Below are positions 22,694 through 32,854 of a stretch of 35,823 nucleotides of DNA, piece by piece. Source of the stretch: Ignavibacteriota bacterium. GTDB taxonomy: Bacteria > Bacteroidota > Ignavibacteria > UBA10030 > UBA6906. The stretch covers positions 12,624-48,446 of the forward strand of contig PMJR01000045.1 in the NCBI GenBank assembly GCA_003158475.1, read 5' to 3'. The notes beneath the pieces are model-generated. The model worked only from the letters and a program-made list of their open reading frames with translations. It did no database searches and was not told the origin of the DNA. Within the stretch, counting starts at the first letter, position 1. Each line of letters starts with the position of its first letter. The position numbers were made by a program, and so were the translations under genes.

Positions 22694-22717
22694 CGGTTAT
22701 TGAGAGAGCCGCTTTTT
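22694..22717 (+). terminator. weak intrinsic terminator after small membrane protein gene
   Basis: CGGTT (22694-22698), 8-base loop, AGCCG (22707-22711; one G-T pair), C, then five T (22713-22717). It begins 12 bases after the stop codon and overlaps the last codons of convergent argH. The short stem makes it uncertain. Confidence 0.3.
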
Positions 22718-24094
22718 CCAGAGGCGGAGAGCCTTCGCGACTTCTTTCGGAGAAGTCGATCCGGAAGACTGCTTCATCGAAAGCGATGCGCGTGCGTCGA
22801 GAAGCGAGGAGACATCCCCCGAGAAGGCGGATGAACGCCGGGTATACTCCCTGAGAGGAAGCTCCCCGAGCGTGCAACGCCGCTCGGCGCACATCGCGAC
22901 AAGATCCCCCACGATCCCGTGCGCTTCACGGAAGGGGATCCCTTTCCGCACCAGATAGTCTGCAAGCTCGGTCGCCAGCAGTTGATCGCCGTTCAGCTCA
23001 TCCTCGAACCGCCCCGCATCAAAGGTCACGGTTGCCATCATGCGGGCGAGAATATCAAGAGACGCCGTCACGGTATCGGCCGCATCAAAGATCGGCTCCT
23101 TGTCCTCCTGCATGTCGCGGTTGTAGGCAAGGGGGAGTCCCTTCATGACGGTAAGAAGTGCAATCAGGTCCCCGTAAACGCGCCCCGTCTTGCCCCGGAT
23201 CAGCTCCGCCATGTCGGGGTTCTTCTTCTGGGGCATGATGCTGCTCCCCGTCGTGAAAGACTCCCCGATCTCAGCGAAGTGCCACTCCCTTGAAGTCCAC
23301 AACACCAACTCCTCGGCAATCCTGCTCGCGTGCATCATCGTGATCGCTGAGGCGCTGATGAATTCCACAAGCACGTCCCTGTCGCTCACCGCATCGATGC
23401 TGTTGGCAACGATCCCGTCCATCCCCAGCGTGCGGGCCGTCCGCCTCCTGTCGATCGGAAACGAGGTCCCTGCAAGCGCGGCGGCACCCAGGGGGGAGAG
23501 CGCCACGCGCTTCCGGCAATCGAGGAACCGCCCCCGGTCGCGTTCGAACATCTCGACATACGCGAGGAGATGGTGGGCAAGGAGGATCGGCTGTGCCCGC
23601 TGAAGGTGCGTGTAGCCCGGCATGATGACATCGCGGAAGGCCTGAGCTTTCCCCACGAACGCGCGCTGCACGGACCGGAGCAGGACGTCGACGTTGTCGA
23701 TTCGGCCCCGAAGAAAGAGCCGGATATCGAGGGCGACCTGGTCGTTCCTGCTCCGCGCGGTGTGCAGTTTCCCCCCCACCCCGCCCGTCAGAGCGATCAG
23801 TCGCTGCTCGACCGCCATGTGGATGTCTTCGGCGGTAAACCGTCCGGAACTGCCATCGATGCGGAGCCACGAAGCCCGGCCGGAGGCCACCTCGCGGCGA
23901 ATCGCCCGGAGGGCCCTTGTTATTTTCCGCCCGTCGGACACCGAGACGATCTTCTGCGCGGCAAGCATGCCGATATGCGCGATGCTTCCTTCGATGTCCT
24001 CGTCCGCCAGGCGGCGGTCAATTTCGAGCGATGACGAGAACCGGAGCGCATGAGGATCGAGCGGCCCCCGAAACCGGCCCTTCCATTGCTTCAT
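22697..24094 (-). CDS. argH: argininosuccinate lyase
   Basis: 465 residues of the fumarase/aspartase superfamily. It cleaves argininosuccinate to arginine and fumarate, the last step of arginine synthesis. Visible: [20 protein letters not shown] at the N terminus, [19 protein letters not shown] near residue 110 (substrate binding), [13 protein letters not shown] near 158 (catalytic His), and the superfamily signature [15 protein letters not shown] near 281, with the catalytic Ser in its flexible loop. Length is typical. The ATG lies on ATGA overlapping the argG stop (24091-24094), so translation is coupled. It is the last gene of the argCJBRGH operon. Confidence 0.96.
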
Positions 24095-25350
24095 CGGACC
24101 GGGACGGATTGCAGGAGGTCCTTCTCCGGCTGTTCTTCGAGTCCGGCTGCGACTGCGTTCTGCACCTGGTGGTAGGTGCGCACCGGAAGGCCGAAAATCT
24201 TGATAAAACCCTCGGACGCCCTGTGGTCAAACTGGTCCCCCTCCGTATACGTGGCAAGATCGGCGTTGTACAACGAGAAGACCGATTTCCTCCCGGCGAC
24301 GCCGACGTTTCCCTTGTAGAGCTTCACGCGCACCGTGCCGGTCACCGTCTTCTGCGTCTCTTCGACAAATGCGTTGAGCGCATCCCTGAGCGGCGAGTAC
24401 CAGAGGCCGTTATACACAAGATCGGCATACTCCGATGCGAGCTGGTTCTTCATGTGGAACACCGACTTGTCGAGCGTGAGACGCTCGAGCTCGGTGTGGG
24501 CGAAGTGGAGGATCGCGGCACCGGGAGCTTCATAGATCTCCCGTGACTTGATGCCGACGAGCCGGTTCTCGATGAGATCGATCCGGCCCACCCCGTGAGC
24601 GCCGCCCATGTCGTTCAGCGTGAAGACCAGGCTCACCGGCTCCAGACGTGAGCCGCCGACCCCGACCGGGATCCCCTCCTCGAAATCGATATCGACATAC
24701 TCCGGCGTATCGGGAGCCAGCTCCGGGGAAATGGTGCGCTGGTACGCGTCCGCGGGGGGCTCGATCATGGGGTCCTCCAGAACTCCGCACTCTATGCTCG
24801 TCCCCCAGATGTTTTCGTCGATCGAATACGGGTTTGCCACAGTGGCTGCAACGAGTATGTTGTTTTTTCGTGCGTAGGCGATTTCCTCCTCGCGTGATCT
24901 GAATTCCCATTCACGGAGTGGGGCGAGGACCTTCAGGTCGGGCGCAAGAGCTGCAATCGAGACTTCAAACCGGACCTGATCGTTCCCCTTCCCCGTGCAG
25001 CCATGAGCGACGTGCGTCGCCCCTTCTTTGCGCGCGATATCCACAATCATCTTCGCCAGCAGGGGACGCCCGAGGGCCGTCGCCATCGGGTACGACTTCT
25101 CATACACCGCCCCCGCCTTCAGTGCGGGCCAGACGTACCCGGTAAGGAACTCCTCCCTCAGGTCCTTGACATAGACCTTGGAAGCCCCGGTGGCGTAAGC
25201 CTTGGCCTGGACGCCGTTCAGCTCCTTCTTCTGGCCGAGGTCCCCCGTCGCCGCGATCACCTCCGCGTCCTTCCGCTCAATGAGCCATTTGACCATGACC
25301 GACGTGTCGAGACCGCCGGAATACGCGACCACTATCTTGGTGGATTTCAT
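24091..25350 (-). CDS. argG: argininosuccinate synthase
   Basis: 419 residues. It joins citrulline and aspartate with ATP to give argininosuccinate. The N-terminal PP-loop [17 protein letters not shown] is at residues 7-23, followed by [20 protein letters not shown] near 112 and [12 protein letters not shown], then [15 protein letters not shown] near 170 and the C-terminal multimerisation helix, which ends [17 protein letters not shown]. These define ArgG type 1. It is coupled at both ends: its ATG overlaps the argR stop (25347-25350) and its stop overlaps the argH start. Citrulline must come from an ornithine carbamoyltransferase encoded outside the window. Confidence 0.96.
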
Positions 25351-25799
25351 TCCAGTCCCTCTATGAGTTTATTCTTGAGAAATTGCAGTACCTGTTTCGT
25401 CTTGCGCCGGGAGCTGGGGACGATGAGAAGCGTATTGTCCCCGGCCACCGTGCCGATCACATCAGGGTGCCGCTGAACATCGATGAACTCCCCCACCGTG
25501 TTTGCACAACCGGGGAGCGTATGAACGACAATCATGCCTTCGTTGGAATCGATCGAAAGAACTTCCGCATTCACGAGCGGCCGGAGCGCCTGTACTTCCA
25601 CAGGCGCCTGCATCGCATAGTGGCCGCCCGCCGAGGAGACGATCCGGCTGACTCCGAGCTCCTTCATGTCGCGCGAGAGCGTCGCCTGCGTGACATCGCA
25701 GCCCCGTTTTTTCAACTCGCGGCGCAGCACATCCTGGCTCCCGATCTGCTTCGTCGCGACGATTTCTTTTATGGCAAAAAGCCTGGCCTGCTTCGTCAT
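25347..25799 (-). CDS. argR: arginine repressor (variant effector site)
   Basis: 150 residues, typical ArgR/AhrC. The N-terminal winged helix has the recognition helix in [17 protein letters not shown] near residue 37. A linker and the C-terminal hexamerisation and arginine-binding domain follow, with [13 protein letters not shown] near 94 and [12 protein letters not shown] near 116. In most ArgR proteins the last motif reads GDD, the acidic pair that contacts L-arginine; here the second Asp is Asn (codon AAT at 25436-25434). GAGGG precedes the ATG. The gene sits inside the operon it should control, between argB and argG, implying autoregulation. ARG-box-like sites lie at 29061-29099. Effector preference could be altered by the GDN variant. 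Confidence 0.93.
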
Positions 25800-25808
25800 G
25801 TCACACCC

Positions 25809-26687
25809 TCAGACCGTCACCGCCGTCCCGTTCCCGGCATGGATGAGCTCCGTGCCGATACCGAGATCGGTGAAGATTTCAAGGAGGATCGAGTGCTTGA
25901 TCCTGCCGTCGATGAGGTGCACTTTGTTGACGCCCGCGGCGAGAGCGGTGAACGCGGAGCGGATCTTGGGTATCATGCCGTTGCTGATGACCCCGTCCGC
26001 CATGAGCCGCTCCGCGAGCGGCCGGTCCATGCTGGGGACAAGAAGGTCGTCGGCCATGACTCCTTCGACGTCGCTCAGGAATACCAGCTTCTCCGCCCTG
26101 AGCTTCGCCGCAATCGCGGAGGCGGCGACGTCGGCGTTGATATTGTGCGGCTCACAGGCATCATTCACGCCGATCGGGGCGATCACGGGCATGATGCCGT
26201 TGTCCAGAAGAAGGTTCAGATATACGGTATTGACGCCGGTGACTTCACCGACCAAACCGAGGTCCACCCCCCCCTCCGCGGACCTCTTCACTTTCAAGAC
26301 ATGGGCGTCGATCCCGCAGAGTCCGACCGCCTCGCCGTCGTGCCTGTTGATCCTCCCGACAATGTCTTTATTTGTCTTTCCCGCAAGCACCATCTGGACC
26401 ACCTCCATCATCGGGGCATCCGTGTATCGCTGGCCGTTCACAAAGCGCGACTCGAGGCCGAGCTTCGAAGCGATGTCCGTGATCTCCTTCCCGCCGCCGT
26501 GGACGATCGCCACTTTGATGCCGATCTTCTTCAGAAGAGTCACATCCTGGGCGAATGCCTCGTTCAACTCGTCGTCCACCATCGCCGCACCTCCGTACTT
26601 CACGACGAAAGTCTTCCCTTCATACCGTGAAATATACGGGAGTGCTTCGATAAGGACTTCCGTCTTGGCGCCGAGCGAAGTGATCAT
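25809..26687 (-). CDS. argB: N-acetylglutamate kinase
   Basis: 292 residues of the amino-acid-kinase family, phosphorylating N-acetyl-L-glutamate. Visible: FVVKYGGAAM at residue 28 (the GGxAM phosphate-binding element), VAIVHGGGKEITDIASKLG near 60 (glycine loop), RFVNGQRYTDAPMMEVVQMVLAGKTNKDIV near 80, and NINADVAASAIAAKLRAEKLVFLSDVEGV near 180. The N-terminal helix ahead of the kinase core (TEVLIEALPYI) is the type found in hexameric, arginine-inhibited enzymes, so feedback inhibition is plausible but unproven. The start is 3 bases after the argJ stop, with TGAGG just upstream. argR follows after 9 bases. Confidence 0.95.
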   Translation of the reverse strand: MITSLGAKTEVLIEALPYISRYEGKTFVVKYGGAAMVDDELNEAFAQDVTLLKKIGIKVAIVHGGGKEITDIASKLGLESRFVNGQRYTDAPMMEVVQMVLAGKTNKDIVGRINRHDGEAVGLCGIDAHVLKVKRSAEGGVDLGLVGEVTGVNTVYLNLLLDNGIMPVIAPIGVNDACEPHNINADVAASAIAAKLRAEKLVFLSDVEGVMADDLLVPSMDRPLAERLMADGVISNGMIPKIRSAFTALAAGVNKVHLIDGRIKHSILLEIFTDLGIGTELIHAGNGTAVTV

Positions 26688-26690
26688 GCC

Positions 26691-28022
26691 TCAGGTCCGG
26701 TAATTTGCATTGATGTCCACGTACGCCTTGGACAGGTCGCATGTCCAGAATGACGCGCTCCCTTCCCCCTGCTGCAGGCTGACGGTGATCGTGATCTCCT
26801 TCCGGCTCAGGACCTTCTTCGCCTCCTCCTCGGAGAAATCAATCGTGTAGTTCCGCCGGAGGATCGGCACACCGCCGAAGAAGATCTCGACCTTTGCCGG
26901 GTCGAAGTCGATCCCCGAGTATCCCACGGCTGCCAGGATGCGGCCCCAGTTCGCATCTTCGCCGTGTATGGCCGTTTTGACGAGATTGGAGTTCGCGATC
27001 GCGCGCGCCGCCCTCACCGCGCTCGCTTCGTCCGCGGCCCCGGTCACATTGATCTCAATGAATTTTGTCGCCCCCTCACCGTCCTTCACGATCATCTTCG
27101 ACAGCGTGACAAGCATCTGCTCGAGAGCTGCGTAGAAGGCCTTGTAGTGCGGTCCCCCCACCTGCGTGAGAGGCTGCGCGCCCGACTCGCCGTTGGCAAG
27201 CACGGCAACCATGTCGTTGGTGCTTGTGTCTCCGTCGACGGAAATCCTGTTGAACGAGCGATCGGCGGCGCGGGAAAGGGCGGAACGGAGGACTGCCGGG
27301 GAGACTGCGGCGTCGGTTGTGACAAAAGCAAGCATGGTGGCCATGTTCGGCGCAATCATCCCGGAACCCTTCGCCATCCCCCCCATCGTCACCCGCACAC
27401 CATCGCAGTCGAATTCCAGCGCATGTTCCTTGACAAATGTGTCGGTTGTTATGATCGCCTCGGCGGCCGAGCCCCCCCCCTCGGGCGAGAGCACCGTCGC
27501 CGCCCTTTTTATCCCGTCGGTGATCGCTGTGATGGGGAGGAACTGCCCGATGACGCCGGTGGATGAAACGAGAACTTCACCCGGCCCCACGTTCAGGGCC
27601 GAGGCGGTCGCCCCGACCATAGCCCAGGCGTCCTTCATCCCGCGATCCCCCGTGCACGCATTGGCGTTCCCGCTGTTCACCACGATGGCGCGGAACGTGT
27701 GCGAACGCTCCATCTGTACCCGTGTGACAACGACGGGGGCCGCCTGGACCCTGTTCGTCGTCAGGACGACGGCCGCGGAGGCCGGTTCATCCGAGACGAC
27801 CAGACAGAGGTCCTTTTTCGATTTCTTGACGCCGCAATGGATGCCTGCCGCGCGAAACCCCTTCGGGGCAGTGATGCCGCCGGGGAGTTCCTTGAGGCCC
27901 GGGAGGGGGAGAATATCTGTCACCGCGGTGTCATGGTGAGGTTGCTCCCCCCCCGGCGCAATGACACCCGTCGCTTTCCCCTCACGGATGTTCTTCGACG
28001 TGCGTTCTGTACCACTGTTCAT
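26691..28022 (-). CDS. argJ: glutamate N-acetyltransferase / ornithine acetyltransferase
   Basis: 443 residues of the ArgJ Ntn-hydrolase-like family. It moves acetyl from N-acetylornithine to glutamate, recycling the acetyl group; bifunctional members also use acetyl-CoA. The autocleavage site is in GMAKGSGMIAPNMATMLAFV near residue 220, where Thr of ATML becomes the N-terminal nucleophile of the beta chain. GGITAPKGFRAAGIHCGVKKS near 48 and RISVDGDTSTNDMV near 260 are further landmarks. About 45 N-terminal residues precede usual ArgJ sequence; ATG 28022 overlaps the argC stop and is kept for coupling, but GTG 27923 is possible. No argA is seen, so ArgJ may also make acetylglutamate. A G9 run (27472-27480) encodes consecutive glycines. 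Confidence 0.94.
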   Translation of the reverse strand: MNSGTERTSKNIREGKATGVIAPGGEQPHHDTAVTDILPLPGLKELPGGITAPKGFRAAGIHCGVKKSKKDLCLVVSDEPASAAVVLTTNRVQAAPVVVTRVQMERSHTFRAIVVNSGNANACTGDRGMKDAWAMVGATASALNVGPGEVLVSSTGVIGQFLPITAITDGIKRAATVLSPEGGGSAAEAIITTDTFVKEHALEFDCDGVRVTMGGMAKGSGMIAPNMATMLAFVTTDAAVSPAVLRSALSRAADRSFNRISVDGDTSTNDMVAVLANGESGAQPLTQVGGPHYKAFYAALEQMLVTLSKMIVKDGEGATKFIEINVTGAADEASAVRAARAIANSNLVKTAIHGEDANWGRILAAVGYSGIDFDPAKVEIFFGGVPILRRNYTIDFSEEEAKKVLSRKEITITVSLQQGEGSASFWTCDLSKAYVDINANYRT

Positions 28023-29032
28023 TTCAATCCTGTCGCCTCAGGGAGACCGAACATGAGATTCATGTTTTGCACCGCCTGGCCCGCCGCTCCTTTGACAAGG
28101 TTATCGATCACGGACATGACGATGAGCTGGTTCGTCCGCCCTTCGATGGCAATGCCGATATCGCAGTAGTTCGTCCTTGTGACGGCGAGCATCTGAGGTA
28201 CCTGGCGGGTGATCCTGACGAACGGGTGCGGGGCGTAAAACTCCTCGTAGAGCGTCAGGAGCTCCGCGGCGCTCAGCGCGACCGACAATCCGGCGTGCGC
28301 CGTCGTGTAAATCCCCCTCGTGATCGGGATCAGATGTGGGACAAATGACACGGTCACCGCCGCACCCGAGGCCTCCGCGAGGACGCTTTCAATTTCAGGA
28401 ATGTGCTGATGGATGCCGATCTTGTAGGCACGGACATTCTCGTTGATTTCGGCAAAACTCATCTCCACGGAGGCGCTCCGACCCGCCCCCGAAACGCCCG
28501 AGAGCGAGTTGATAACGATCCCGCCGGGGTGAATGATGCCGTGTTTCAACGCCGGCAGGAGTGCCAGGATCGCACCGGTGGGGTAGCAACCGGGATTGGC
28601 GACGAATTTCGCTGCAGCGATCAGGTCCCTGTTGAGCTCAGGGAGTCCGTACACCGCCGCCGTAAGGAGTTCCGGAGCGGTGTGCAGGTGCCGGTAATAC
28701 TTTTCGTAGAGCCCTGCAGACCTGAGGCGGAAATCCCCCCCCAGGTCGATGATCCTTCTGACCCTGTCTCTGAGGAGCGGGATGATCTTCATCGCTTCCC
28801 CGGAGGGGAGGGCGACAAAAGCAACGTCGATGCCGTCGAGTCCCGCAGGGACGAGCTCGTCGTACTCCAGATCGCACTGCCCCGCAAAGGCCGGATAAAG
28901 GGCATCGACCCTTTTCCCGGCGGAAGAGGCTGCGGTCACCTTCTGTACCCGGACCCCGGGGTGGGAAGAGAGGACCCTCAGGAGCTCGGCCCCCGAGTAG
29001 CCCGATGCCCCGATAATTGCTGCGTTCACCAC
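28019..29032 (-). CDS. argC: N-acetyl-gamma-glutamyl-phosphate reductase
   Basis: 337 residues from GTG 29032. It reduces N-acetylglutamyl phosphate to the semialdehyde with NADPH. The Rossmann motif AIIGASGYSGAELLRVL starts at about residue 4. FVANPGCYPTGAILALLPAL near 141 carries the active-site Cys, and PHLIPITRGIYTTAHA near 235 is also typical. The start is uncertain: ATG 29068 adds 12 residues, and TTG 29098 lies upstream of the predicted transcription start (near 29078) and inside the operator, so it is rejected. GTG 29032 gives the usual family N terminus. It is the first gene of argCJBRGH; its stop overlaps the argJ start. Confidence 0.94.
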   Translation of the reverse strand: MVNAAIIGASGYSGAELLRVLSSHPGVRVQKVTAASSAGKRVDALYPAFAGQCDLEYDELVPAGLDGIDVAFVALPSGEAMKIIPLLRDRVRRIIDLGGDFRLRSAGLYEKYYRHLHTAPELLTAAVYGLPELNRDLIAAAKFVANPGCYPTGAILALLPALKHGIIHPGGIVINSLSGVSGAGRSASVEMSFAEINENVRAYKIGIHQHIPEIESVLAEASGAAVTVSFVPHLIPITRGIYTTAHAGLSVALSAAELLTLYEEFYAPHPFVRITRQVPQMLAVTRTNYCDIGIAIEGRTNQLIVMSVIDNLVKGAAGQAVQNMNLMFGLPEATGLK

Positions 29033-29060: not shown

Positions 29061-29099
29061 TCTTGCATAAATATGCAAAAACCTGTATTATTATGCAAG
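29061..29099. promoter_or_regulatory. pair of ARG-box-like palindromes between argC and argD
   Basis: Box 1, TTGCATA-AA-TATGCAA (29063-29078), has perfect 7-bp arms. Box 2, TGTATTA/TTATGCA (29084-29097), matches the same pattern with one mismatch in the outer arm. Their centres are 20 bp apart, equal to two 18-bp ARG boxes separated by 2 bp, the spacing expected for one ArgR hexamer. Both divergent promoters lie under the boxes. argR is in the argC operon. Confidence 0.6.
29063..29091 (+). promoter_or_regulatory. putative argD promoter
   Basis: TTGCAT (29063-29068), 17 bases, TATTAT (29086-29091). The -35 lies in ARG box 1 and the -10 in box 2. The predicted start near 29098 is about 38 bases before the argD ATG at 29136. 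Confidence 0.5.
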
Positions 29100-29113
29100 A
29101 ACTTTTTTCACAA
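29085..29113 (-). promoter_or_regulatory. putative argCJBRGH promoter
   Basis: On the minus strand: TTGTGA (29113-29108), 17 bases, TAATAC (29090-29085). The -10 falls in ARG box 2 and box 1 covers the start site near 29078. The -10 shares bases 29086-29090 with that of argD on the other strand. Confidence 0.5.
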
Positions 29114-29135: not shown

Positions 29136-30332
29136 ATGACCATGCAGGCCAGGACAATGCAGGACAGGGAAGCCGCCACTTTCTTCCATACGTACAAGCG
29201 CCTTCCTCTCGAAGTGGAGCGGGGGGAAGGGGTGTACCTGTTCACGAGAGACGGGAAGCGCTACCTGGATATGTTCGCAGGACTGGCCGTCAACGCGCTC
29301 GGGTACGCCCATCCGCGCATCGTCGAGGCGATACGCTCCCAGGCGTCCCGCTATAGCCACCTGTCAAACTATTTCCTTCAGGAGACGCAGATACGGCTGG
29401 CCGAGCTGCTGACCAGTCTTTCCGGTTACCCGAGGGTGTTCTTCAGCAACAGCGGGACCGAGGCAATCGAGGGGGCGATCAAGATTGCCCGTAAGTGGGG
29501 CTCGACCCGGGGAAAGACCGAGATCCTGTCGCTGAGCAATTCTTTTCACGGGCGGACAATGGGAGCGCTTTCCCTGATGGACCGCCCGAAATACAGGGAC
29601 GGATTCGGTCCCTTCCTCGAAGGATGCCGTCTCCTGCCGTTCAATGACCCGGCGGCCCTCCGGAAATCCGTCAGCCCGAGAACTGCAGCCGTGATTCTCG
29701 AATTCATTCAGGGGGAGGGAGGCATCAGGCCGGTCTCAGCAGAGTTTGCGCGCACGCTGGCGGAACTGCAGAGCGAATCGGGGTTCCTTCTCATCGCGGA
29801 CGAAATCCAGTCGGGCGCCGGGAGGACGGGAAAGTTCTTTGCCTTCCAGCACTACCCGGTTTCCCCCGATGTCGTCACGCTCGCCAAACCGATCGGGGGG
29901 GGGCTCCCTCTGGGCGCCATACTCGCGACCGGCGATGTCGCGTCGGTGCTCGAGCCGGGGATGCATGGGACCACATTCGGCGGAAACCCTGTCGCCTGTG
30001 CGGCCGGCGTGGCGGTGCTGGAAGAAATCGAAGAGAAGAACCTGACCGGGCGCGCCGCGGTACTGGGGGAGAGACTGAAGGCCGGACTCAACGGCCTCGC
30101 GAAGGAATTCCCGGTTTTGATCAAAGAGGTTCGTGGTTTCGGCCTCATGGCCGGAGCTGAGCTCGACCGGAGCGGAGACGGAATCACGGATGCGATGAGG
30201 GAGAAGTGTATCCTCATCAACTGCACGGACACGACCGTGCTCAGATTCCTCCCCCCTCTTATCATTGAGGCATCCCATGTAGACGAGACCATCGCCACTC
30301 TCAGGGGGGTTCTCGCAAGTATCAAAAAATGA
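29136..30332 (+). CDS. argD: acetylornithine aminotransferase
   Basis: 398 residues of the class III, PLP-dependent aminotransferases, converting N-acetylglutamate semialdehyde to N-acetylornithine with glutamate. Visible: FHTYKRLPLEVERGEGVYLFTRDG near the N terminus, VFFSNSGTEAIEGAIKIAR near residue 88, NSFHGRTMGALS near 117, LIADEIQSGAGRTGKFFAFQ near 210 (Asp that binds PLP nitrogen), and the Schiff-base lysine in LAKPIGGGLPLGA near 250. ATG 29136 is chosen because the reading frame upstream enters the operator. ATG 29142 and ATG 29157 are alternatives, the last having AGGA at good distance. It is transcribed away from argC under the shared ARG boxes. A G9 run (29895-29903) encodes three glycines. 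Confidence 0.95.
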   Translation: MTMQARTMQDREAATFFHTYKRLPLEVERGEGVYLFTRDGKRYLDMFAGLAVNALGYAHPRIVEAIRSQASRYSHLSNYFLQETQIRLAELLTSLSGYPRVFFSNSGTEAIEGAIKIARKWGSTRGKTEILSLSNSFHGRTMGALSLMDRPKYRDGFGPFLEGCRLLPFNDPAALRKSVSPRTAAVILEFIQGEGGIRPVSAEFARTLAELQSESGFLLIADEIQSGAGRTGKFFAFQHYPVSPDVVTLAKPIGGGLPLGAILATGDVASVLEPGMHGTTFGGNPVACAAGVAVLEEIEEKNLTGRAAVLGERLKAGLNGLAKEFPVLIKEVRGFGLMAGAELDRSGDGITDAMREKCILINCTDTTVLRFLPPLIIEASHVDETIATLRGVLASIKK

Positions 30333-30421: not shown

Positions 30422-30451
30422 TTGTTCAAAATTGAAGTTTTTTCTGATAAT
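30422..30451 (+). promoter_or_regulatory. putative promoter of nfnAB
   Basis: TTGTTC (30422-30427), 18 bases, GATAAT (30446-30451). The predicted start near 30458 is about 55 bases before ATG 30513. A weak -35; TTGACA at 30371-30376 has no -10 at proper spacing. Confidence 0.3.
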
Positions 30452-30512
30452 CCTCTGGCACGTCAATTGCGACCCCCTGTATGATCTTCCTACACCCAAA
30501 TGGAGAGGGCGC

Positions 30513-31367
30513 ATGTTCCAGATTATCGATAAGAAGGTCCTTGCTCCGACTATCACGAGGTTCGAAATCAAGGCGCCGTTCATCGCGCGGAAGAGGAAGG
30601 CGGGGAATTTCGTCATGGTGCGGGTTGAGGAGGGTGGGGAACGGATACCTCTGACGATCGCCGACGGGAACCCGGCCCTGGGGACGATCACGCTCATTGT
30701 GCAGGCGATCGGCGGCACGACGAAGCTTCTTTGCAGCAAGAACGCCGGCGACACTCTCCTCGACGTCGTCGGACCTCTCGGCAACCCTACACCGATCGAG
30801 GATCACGGTGTTGTCGCGTGCGTCGGCGGGGGTGTCGGCACCGCGGAGCTTTATCCGATTGCCAAGGCACTCAAAGAAGCCGGGAATCGGGTTCTCACCA
30901 TCATAGGCGCGCGCTCCAAAGAACTCGTGATACTCGAAAAAGAAATGAACGCCTGTTCCGACGAGACATTCGTGACGACCGACGACGGAACGTACGCGCG
31001 GAAAGGGTTCGTGACCGATCAATTGAAAGATCTGCTCGACGCTCCGGGGGGCGTGAATGCCGTCTACGCGATCGGCCCCCTCCCCATGATGAAAGCGGTG
31101 GCAAACCTTACGCGATCGTATCAGGTGGAGACGCTCGTCAGTCTCAACACGATCATGGTTGACGGGACGGGGATGTGCGGCGGATGCCGCGTCACTGTTG
31201 CCGGAGAGATGAAGTTTGCGTGCGTCGACGGCCCGGAATTCGACGGACACAAGGTGGATTTCGACGAGCTCATGATGAGGAATCGCACGTACGTGGACTT
31301 GGAACGAATCTCGGATCAGAAACATGTCTGCAGATTGACGGGCGTGAGCCAGGAGGCAGCCACATGA
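30513..31367 (+). CDS. nfnA: NfnA-type FAD/NAD-binding, [2Fe-2S] subunit (sulfide dehydrogenase/transhydrogenase)
   Basis: 284 residues of the ferredoxin-NADP reductase/dihydroorotate-dehydrogenase-electron-transfer family. The FAD barrel contains the RIPLTIAD element near residue 47 and the NAD-binding Rossmann half begins VACVGGGVGTAELYPIAKAL near 101. The C-terminal iron-sulfur loop MCGGCRVTV near 227 and the following FACVDGPEFDGHKVDF supply four Cys for a [2Fe-2S] cluster. With NfnB it would form the NADH-dependent reduced-ferredoxin:NADP+ oxidoreductase, which confurcates electrons from NADH and ferredoxin to NADP+. ATG 30513 follows GGAGAGGG and gives the usual N terminus; earlier in-frame codons do not. 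Its stop overlaps the nfnB start (ATGA at 31364-31367). Confidence 0.87.
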   Translation: MFQIIDKKVLAPTITRFEIKAPFIARKRKAGNFVMVRVEEGGERIPLTIADGNPALGTITLIVQAIGGTTKLLCSKNAGDTLLDVVGPLGNPTPIEDHGVVACVGGGVGTAELYPIAKALKEAGNRVLTIIGARSKELVILEKEMNACSDETFVTTDDGTYARKGFVTDQLKDLLDAPGGVNAVYAIGPLPMMKAVANLTRSYQVETLVSLNTIMVDGTGMCGGCRVTVAGEMKFACVDGPEFDGHKVDFDELMMRNRTYVDLERISDQKHVCRLTGVSQEAAT

Positions 31368-32854
31368 GTGTGAACAACCCACTGAAGCCATCGCAGCGGA
31401 TGAAGATTCCCCGCCAGGAATCCATCGAACAGCCGGCGGATCTGCGGAGCATCAACTTCCTCGAAGTGTCCTATGGCTTCGACGAGGAACGGGCAATCCA
31501 GGAGAGCCAGCGCTGTCTGGAATGCAAGCAACCCTACTGCACGGACGGCTGTCCCGTGGGGATCGACATCCGGGCGTTCATCGACCTGGTGGTGCAAAAA
31601 GACTATGTCGGCGCCGTGAGGAAGATACGGGAGGCAAACTATCTCCCCGCCATCTGCGGTAGGGTCTGCCCCCAGGAATCCCAGTGTGAATCCCTTTGCG
31701 TGATGGGGAAGAAGCTGACTCCGGTGGCCATCGGCAAACTCGAACGGTTTGTCGCCGACTACGAGATGAGGAACAATCTGTTCACTCCCCCGTTGATCAG
31801 TGAAAAGCGGCAGGAGAAAGTCGCGATCGTCGGGTCCGGACCTTCAGGACTCACGTGCGCGGCGGAACTGGCGCAGAGGGGATACCGGGTCACCATATTT
31901 GAAGCCCTTCATGCGGTCGGCGGGGTCCTCCGGTACGGGATCCCCGAATTCCGGCTCCCCAAAGAAATCCTCGATCTTGAAACCAACCGGATCAAAGCGC
32001 TCGGGGTCGAGATCCATACGAACTTCGTTGTGGGGAGGACGGCCACGATCGACGAGCTGTTCGATGAATGGGGATTCAAAGCCATATTCCTCGGGACGGG
32101 TGCCGGGACGCCGACGTTCATGGGTATTCCGGGGGAGAGCCTGAGCGGAGTTTATTCAGCGAACGAATTCCTCACGCGCGTCAACCTGATGGGGGCCTAC
32201 AAATTCCCCCAGAACGATACGCCGATCAGGGTGGGAAAGGCCGTCGGGGTGATCGGCGGGGGAAACACCGCGATGGACGCGGTGCGAACATCCAAGCGGC
32301 TGGGGGCGGAAAAAGCGTACCTCATATACAGACGCTCTCGCGGGGAGATGCCCGCCCGCGAAGAGGAGATACACCACGCGGAACAGGAAGGGATTGAATT
32401 CCTCCTGCTGACCGCGCCCCTCCGTATACTCGGGGACAGGAACAACTGGGTCCGCGGCATGGAATGCCAGAAGATGGAGCTGGGGGAACCGGATGAATCG
32501 GGACGCCGGAGGCCGGTGCCCCTGAAGGGTTCCGAGTTCACGCTCGAACTTCAAACGGTCATAGAGGCGATCGGACAGAAACCGAACCCGATCATACAGG
32601 CGACAACCCCGGGGCTCGAGACGAGCAAGCGGGGAACAGTCGTCACGAATGAAAATCAGAAGACGAGCCGTGAGGGGATATTCGCCGGAGGGGATCTTTC
32701 ACGCGGCGGGGCGACCGTGATACTGGCAATGAAGGACGGGAAGACCGCCGCGGCCGCGATACATGAGTACCTCGACACGCTTCATACGGCGGCGCAGATC
32801 GAAGGGTCCAATGGGCCAGATGTCGCGACTAACGAAACAGGCCGTACTTTTTGA
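31364..32854 (+). CDS. nfnB: NfnB / glutamate-synthase small-subunit-like NADPH oxidoreductase (GltA type)
   Basis: 496 residues. The N-terminal Fe-S domain has CLECKQPYCTDGCPVGIDI near residue 47 and CGRVCPQESQCESLCVMG near 97, the cysteines for two [4Fe-4S] clusters. Then come the FAD site VAIVGSGPSGLTCAAELAQRG near 152, the NADPH site VGVIGGGNTAMDAVRTSKRLG near 295, and EGIFAGGDLSRGGATVILAMKDGK near 445. The protein alone resembles archaeal GltA. Direct coupling to an NfnA gene, in the order nfnA-nfnB, makes the bifurcating transhydrogenase the better call, and absence of a glutamate-synthase large subunit supports this. NfnAB usually marks an anaerobic or fermentative redox economy. The last 26 bases overlap the convergent lipoprotein gene. 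Confidence 0.88.
   Translation: MSVNNPLKPSQRMKIPRQESIEQPADLRSINFLEVSYGFDEERAIQESQRCLECKQPYCTDGCPVGIDIRAFIDLVVQKDYVGAVRKIREANYLPAICGRVCPQESQCESLCVMGKKLTPVAIGKLERFVADYEMRNNLFTPPLISEKRQEKVAIVGSGPSGLTCAAELAQRGYRVTIFEALHAVGGVLRYGIPEFRLPKEILDLETNRIKALGVEIHTNFVVGRTATIDELFDEWGFKAIFLGTGAGTPTFMGIPGESLSGVYSANEFLTRVNLMGAYKFPQNDTPIRVGKAVGVIGGGNTAMDAVRTSKRLGAEKAYLIYRRSRGEMPAREEEIHHAEQEGIEFLLLTAPLRILGDRNNWVRGMECQKMELGEPDESGRRRPVPLKGSEFTLELQTVIEAIGQKPNPIIQATTPGLETSKRGTVVTNENQKTSREGIFAGGDLSRGGATVILAMKDGKTAAAAIHEYLDTLHTAAQIEGSNGPDVATNETGRTF

Follow-up and report, generated by a model that had tools for sequence, protein, structure and literature searches.

A conserved 36-bp dyad between argC and argD in an Ignavibacteria genome probably combines an ArgR-type operator with two opposed promoters

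The divergent arginine genes argC and argD of an Ignavibacteriota bacterium are separated by 103 bp. This gap contains two TGCAT-type palindromes with a centre-to-centre distance of 20 bp, as well as promoter-like hexamers on both strands. Together they form a 36-bp dyad that, with a probability of roughly 0.8 in our estimate, serves both as an operator and as the core promoters for argD and the argCJBRGH operon. At least 13 related genera share the unit, which is conserved in 22 of their argD/argC gaps, and its argD-facing promoter is linked to the presence of the adjoining argD. An earlier note on this DNA had proposed face-to-face promoters with coincident -10 elements under a two-box ArgR operator. 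At the sequence level, conservation supports one ArgR-type operator for both genes and opposed sigma-70-type promoters that overlap, and it places the argC promoter elsewhere in the dyad.

Results

The arginine genes and the candidate repressor

The analysed stretch of 35,823 nucleotides (the window) carries argC, argJ, argB, argR, argG and argH in this order on the minus strand, with tight or overlapping ends, and argD on the plus strand (Table 1). Family profile matches bear out these gene calls, which the earlier note had made. The argR product contains the N-terminal DNA-binding and the C-terminal arginine-binding oligomerisation domains of the ArgR/AhrC proteins (Pfam), and its best solved relatives belong to the same group. 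Its score against the TIGR01529 equivalog is 120.8 bits, under the cut-off of 130.45. The candidate repressor gene sits within the argC operon, the one it would repress.

Downstream of argD, the region 30432-32854 holds sulfide/dihydroorotate dehydrogenase-like and NADPH-dependent glutamate synthase-type genes, possibly linked to glutamate supply. No operator was found in this region. An archaeal reading, in which the A/T-rich gap resembles TATA boxes, was ruled out by the family matches and by the Bacteroidota-type relatives.

Table 1 Features of the argC-argD region in window coordinates. Promoter elements and ARG boxes are predictions.
Feature	Coordinates	Strand	Details
Dyad unit, 36 bp	29063..29098		candidate two-box operator holding both putative promoters; conserved in 22 divergent gaps
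ARG box 1	29064..29077		TGCAT-AAAT-ATGCA; extended palindrome TTGCATA-AA-TATGCAA 29063-29078; centre 29070.5
ARG box 2	29084..29097		imperfect, TGTAT-TATT-ATGCA; centre 29090.5, 20 bp from box 1 centre
argD promoter -35, TTGCAT	29063..29068	+	box 1, outer half-site; TTGCAT is in all 22 divergent gaps and in 5 of 46 argC-only operators
argD promoter -10, TATTAT	29086..29091	+	box 2, inner half; TAnnnT is in all 22 divergent gaps and in 7 of 46 argC-only operators
argC promoter -35, TTGCAT	29093..29098	-	outer half-site of box 2; TTG in 68/68, TTGCAT in 67/68 argC operators
argC promoter -10, CATATT	29070..29075	-	inner half of box 1; nAnnnT in 68/68 argC operators
argC, N-acetyl-gamma-glutamyl-phosphate reductase	28019..29032	-	GTG start; TIGR01850 408 bits, cut-off 233.6; starts aligned
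argJ	26691..28022	-	TIGR00120 and NF003802 above cut-off
argB	25809..26687	-	TIGR00761 above cut-off
argR, candidate repressor	25347..25799	-	PF01316 59.7 bits (cut-off 27); PF02863 68.8 bits (cut-off 25)
argG	24091..25350	-	TIGR00032 above cut-off
argH	22697..24094	-	TIGR00838 above cut-off
argD, acetylornithine transaminase	29136..30332	+	TIGR00707 above cut-off; PF00202; ATG at 29136, 29157 also possible

A two-box operator in the argC-argD gap

All hexamers and palindromes quoted in the earlier note are found in the window at the positions given there, and two palindromes 20 bp apart do cover the argC-argD promoter region, far above what shuffling yields. The gap fits two TGCAT-N4-ATGCA boxes at a distance of 20 bp with 1 mismatch among 20 scored bases, while the best of 5,000 dinucleotide-preserving shuffles has 6. 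The exact TGCAT-N4-ATGCA sequence has only two matches in the whole genome, a 3.75-Mb draft for which genome-wide counts come from pattern searches and a 395-kb sample. In whole-genome scans of four members of the genus (the window's own genome and three congeners), allowing up to 3 mismatches to the two-box pattern detects one site per genome, the argC-argD gap; a reversed control pattern gives 0 matches in the same scans.

The dyad has the sequence features of a two-box ArgR operator: palindromes built from TGnAT-type half-sites, centres in the range of 20-21 bp, and overlap with a promoter. Its position, its conservation and the argR gene within the operon make it a candidate ArgR operator.

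Conservation in the family and the order

The region upstream of argC was extracted from 17 members of the family, 16 of which have argD divergent from argC. It contains a gap-free conserved block, TTGCATRAWTATRC-N8-G-TATNNTTATGCAA, and all 16 divergent cases have a distance of 20 bp between the box centres. No other conserved block was seen in the argC-argD gap of the family alignment. Across the order, the composite pattern with up to 3 mismatches is present in 66 of 98 genomes, with 0 matches to the reversed control, and all but a few of the sites lie immediately upstream of argC. The operators at two further loci, L089 and L090, are the same as those of the order members G075 and G069.

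Five full-length argC orthologues missed by the pattern were fetched independently. All five carry the 36-bp unit with more mismatches, which removes most of the detection bias. Four have paired boxes at a distance of 20 bp and read TTGCAT-N17-TATATT or TATACT, and the fifth (G054) has TTGTAT-N17-TATATT. Conservation in orthologous argC-argD gaps, which the earlier note had named as the test that could refute it, is seen in all 22 intact gaps.

Two mirrored promoters within the dyad

The putative argD promoter reads TTGCAT-N17-TATTAT on the plus strand. It is mirrored on the minus strand by TTGCAT-N17-CATATT, the putative argC promoter. Most relatives have TATATT or TATAAT as the mirror -10; in the window and its genus it begins with C, making it a weak element there. 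TTGCAT agrees with the -35 consensus TTGACA at TTG only.

A sample of about 430 kb of the same genome, window included, supplied 118 upstream regions in which the -35/-10 geometry was assessed. TTG-N20-TAnnnT occurs 19 times in these regions, compared to 1.9 times in shuffles and 6 times on the other strand. This enrichment indicates that the classical geometry is the right one to apply, and TTG-N17-nAnnnT is conserved in the argC operators, as expected for sigma-70-type promoters. The Bacteroides-type -33/-7 motif was not clearly enriched in the 118 regions (1 vs 0).

For argC, the earlier note had proposed a different minus-strand promoter, TTGTGA (29113-29108) and TAATAC (29090-29085), whose -10 bases would be common with those of argD. 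These letters are present with a 17-bp spacer, and E. coli has many bidirectional promoters with a shared -10, whose starts are separated by 18, 10 or 23 bp (PMC12825309). However, the pair is not conserved and is probably not the argC promoter. The -35 position differs in each of three congeners, so that not even the genus retains TTGTGA, and the 22 divergent relatives show TTGTGA, AAGTGA, TGTTGA, TAAGTG, CCTCCA and others there. The proposed -10 ends in C in 22/22, and its bases are explained by box 2 together with the argD -10. We consider transcription of argC from this pair very improbable. The conserved -10 hexamers do not coincide; they are separate, with 10 bp between them (29070-29075 and 29086-29091). 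The predicted argD start stays at about 29098, as in the earlier note, while that of argC moves from 29078 to about 29063, the mirror-position promoter being the conserved one.

Divergent and argC-only operators

The operators fall into two classes. In 22 of them, from 13 genera, argD is divergent from argC; these belong to families f1 and f3 and to a single genome (G085) of family f5. In the other 46, from 22 genera of families f5 and f6, no argD was found beside argC, although a divergent argD is still possible in the 2 cases with less than 210 bp of upstream contig. The argC-directed promoter (TTG, N20, nAnnnT) is present in 68/68 operators, including 46/46 of the argC-only class, and in the 22 divergent gaps both strands carry TTGCAT-N17-nAnnnT. 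The argD-side TTG and TAnnnT occur together in 22/22 divergent and 0/46 argC-only operators (Fisher p 2.5e-18, counted by sequence and uncorrected for kinship; the divergent cases come mostly from two families and the counts are not independent).

Single bases show the same contrast. Base 29063, which is part of the argD-side TTG only and lies outside the TGCAT arm, carries 2.00 bits in the divergent class vs 0.19 in the argC-only class. For base 29086, the T with which the argD -10 begins, the values are 2.00 vs 0.01. The equivalent positions on the argC side are conserved in both classes. In nearly all argC-only operators the argC-distal half-site is TTGCAT, while the proximal half-site decays. 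The inner half-sites read TGTAT where a -10 overlies them and are variable where none does. Selection thus tracks the presence of a gene to transcribe. Such a pattern marks a promoter, whereas a symmetric repressor site would not leave it.

It could be argued that the dyad is an ArgR operator only, with true promoters elsewhere in the gap and the hexamers as by-products. ARG boxes are A/T-rich, TTGCAT is itself an extended half-site, and the palindromes are striking on their own in the shuffle test. Yet a symmetric repressor fails to explain why the distal TTGCAT is kept while the proximal one decays, leaves the dependence of the inner TGTAT on an overlying -10 unexplained, and would act in a gap that has no second conserved block. 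This makes the operator-only explanation improbable.

Alternatively, the argC direction alone could be a real promoter, with argD transcribed from a promoter elsewhere or through weak divergent leakage. The argC-only operators of 22 genera show the argC promoter to be the ancestral or general component, and similar argC-directed units lie upstream of argC in some Firmicutes. Against this, the argD-directed TTGCAT and TAnnnT are invariant in the 22 divergent gaps and absent together from the 46 argC-only operators, and we regard an argC promoter alone as extremely unlikely.

Two exceptions within families follow the same rule. G085, divergent within an otherwise argC-only family, has the mirror promoter, as expected. 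G007, whose argC has no adjoining argD in a divergent family, keeps TTGCAT-N17-CATATT for argC; the argD -10 is lost, and a new box has been gained 20 bp further towards argC.

A decayed operator lies upstream of argD in G013 (L225 553-588, contig C385), where neither argR nor argC was found. TTGAAT-N17-TATTTT towards argD is kept, with mismatches in both palindromes. In this single case, the repressor sites look to have decayed after loss of the repressor.

Extent of the regulon

The earlier note had expected boxes at other arg genes such as argF. No comparable box pair was found at the examined argF/ornithine carbamoyltransferase loci from the window's own genome, its genus, family or order, and each genome of the genus has one operator. 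In the lineage of the window, ArgR may be a switch confined to the arg cluster that also represses its own gene.

G085 carries three two-box operators, at argD/argC, at argR-argG and at one third site (L208 2197-2232, L209 2201-2236). Its regulon is wider than that in the genus of the window.

The window's genome has one ornithine carbamoyltransferase above the family cut-off (L052/L228, G000:C123), adjoining a carbamate kinase. A second one of 304 aa is present in congeners (L219-L221) and was not found in the window's genome, which reflects either a gap or a loss. Second argC-like genes of G014 and G020 (L261 and L260, about 40% identical) are without boxes and follow a LysX/ArgX-like frame; they were therefore not counted as argC of the arg operon. 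These paralogues are probably amino-group-carrier lysine or arginine pathway genes.

Discussion

Our results are consistent with a unit in which the same bases are used by repressor and polymerase. In each ARG box, the outer half-site TTGCAT would act as the -35 of the promoter reading across to the far side. The inner half-site (TGTAT or TGCAT followed by A/T) would supply the -10 for the promoter in the opposite direction, with 17 bp between this -10 and the -35 in the other box. In the presence of arginine, one ArgR hexamer bound to both boxes could cover all four hexamers and silence both directions. As argR would be silenced too, this implies negative feedback. When arginine is absent, a sigma-70-type polymerase would bind in one orientation at a time and transcribe either argD, from about 29098, or argC, from about 29063. 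Steric exclusion between the opposed polymerases is likely, given the overlap of the promoters. We infer ArgR binding, repression, autoregulation, mutual exclusion and the start sites from this anatomy.

It is possible, though rather doubtful, that the exact mirror symmetry itself is selected. Loading in one orientation would then fix the ratio of argD to argCJBRGH upon derepression, and the inner TGTAT half-sites would be a compromise between repressor and polymerase.

The dyad is a compact natural example of such an arrangement, and many relatives have only one of the two genes beside the unit. The contrast between divergent and argC-only operators separates, base by base, the needs of the repressor from those of the polymerase in each direction. 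The unit therefore lends itself to comparative and experimental studies of how polymerases compete where divergent promoters overlap, in a lineage for which we know of few experiments. It also yields sharp predictions for the specificity of ArgR (TGCAT half-sites) and for the start sites of argC and argD.

The bidirectional promoters of Warman, Grainger and colleagues share one common -10 (PMC12825309). As in the argC-argD gap, pseudo-symmetric DNA is engaged by polymerase either way, and a repressor can silence both directions (AcrR at PacrA/acrR). The argC-argD dyad does not belong to this class: its candidate for a shared -10 lacks conservation, it has two distinct -10 elements, the predicted starts are about 35 bp apart, and each -35 lies over the predicted start of the other promoter. 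The earlier note had suggested that the two arms may compete even without arginine. Among E. coli bidirectional promoters, five were tested; their basal transcription did not suffice for competition, and only strong activation brought it out (PMC12825309).

Operators that control a single direction can likewise consist of two palindromic boxes lying over a promoter. At E. coli carAB P2, binding of ArgR and of polymerase to a two-box operator is mutually exclusive (PMC6245113). The half-sites of the dyad are TGCAT/TGTAT, compared to the TGAAT type of E. coli. The arg genes of Streptomyces have contiguous 20-nt boxes, so the spacing is 20 bp there as well (PMC5839063). Several Firmicutes (L093, L104 Blautia, L107 Aneurinibacillus, L111, L112) carry an argC-directed TTG-N17-TATAAT upstream of argC, within two ARG-box-like palindromes 20 bp apart. 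This is a single-sided form of the unit. It is probably the widespread one, with the double-sided form a variant.

The closest known system is the argECBH operon of E. coli, reportedly described as bipolar by Piette et al. in 1982 (cited in PMC4258820) and Charlier et al. in 1992. Its promoters point towards each other and are both overlapped by the operator. In our own check of the MG1655 sequence, the argE-argC gap contains a pair of ARG boxes at a distance of 21 bp. Among enteric and vibrio-like bacteria, clusters with argE divergent from argCB are the usual arrangement (PMC1382215). A limited literature search yielded no description of an argD/argC version. In both systems, arginine genes diverge from a gap that holds two ARG boxes, and argC belongs to one of the two arms; in ours, sequence and conservation indicate a single operator covering two opposed, overlapping promoters. 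The differences are in the partner gene (argD instead of argE) and the distance of the box centres (20 instead of 21 bp). Unlike in argECBH, both promoters lie wholly inside the two boxes at mirror positions, argR is part of the operon, and the genome has no further operators. The argC-argD unit appears to be a compact variant of the argECBH design, with the operator and two opposed promoters in the same 36 bases.
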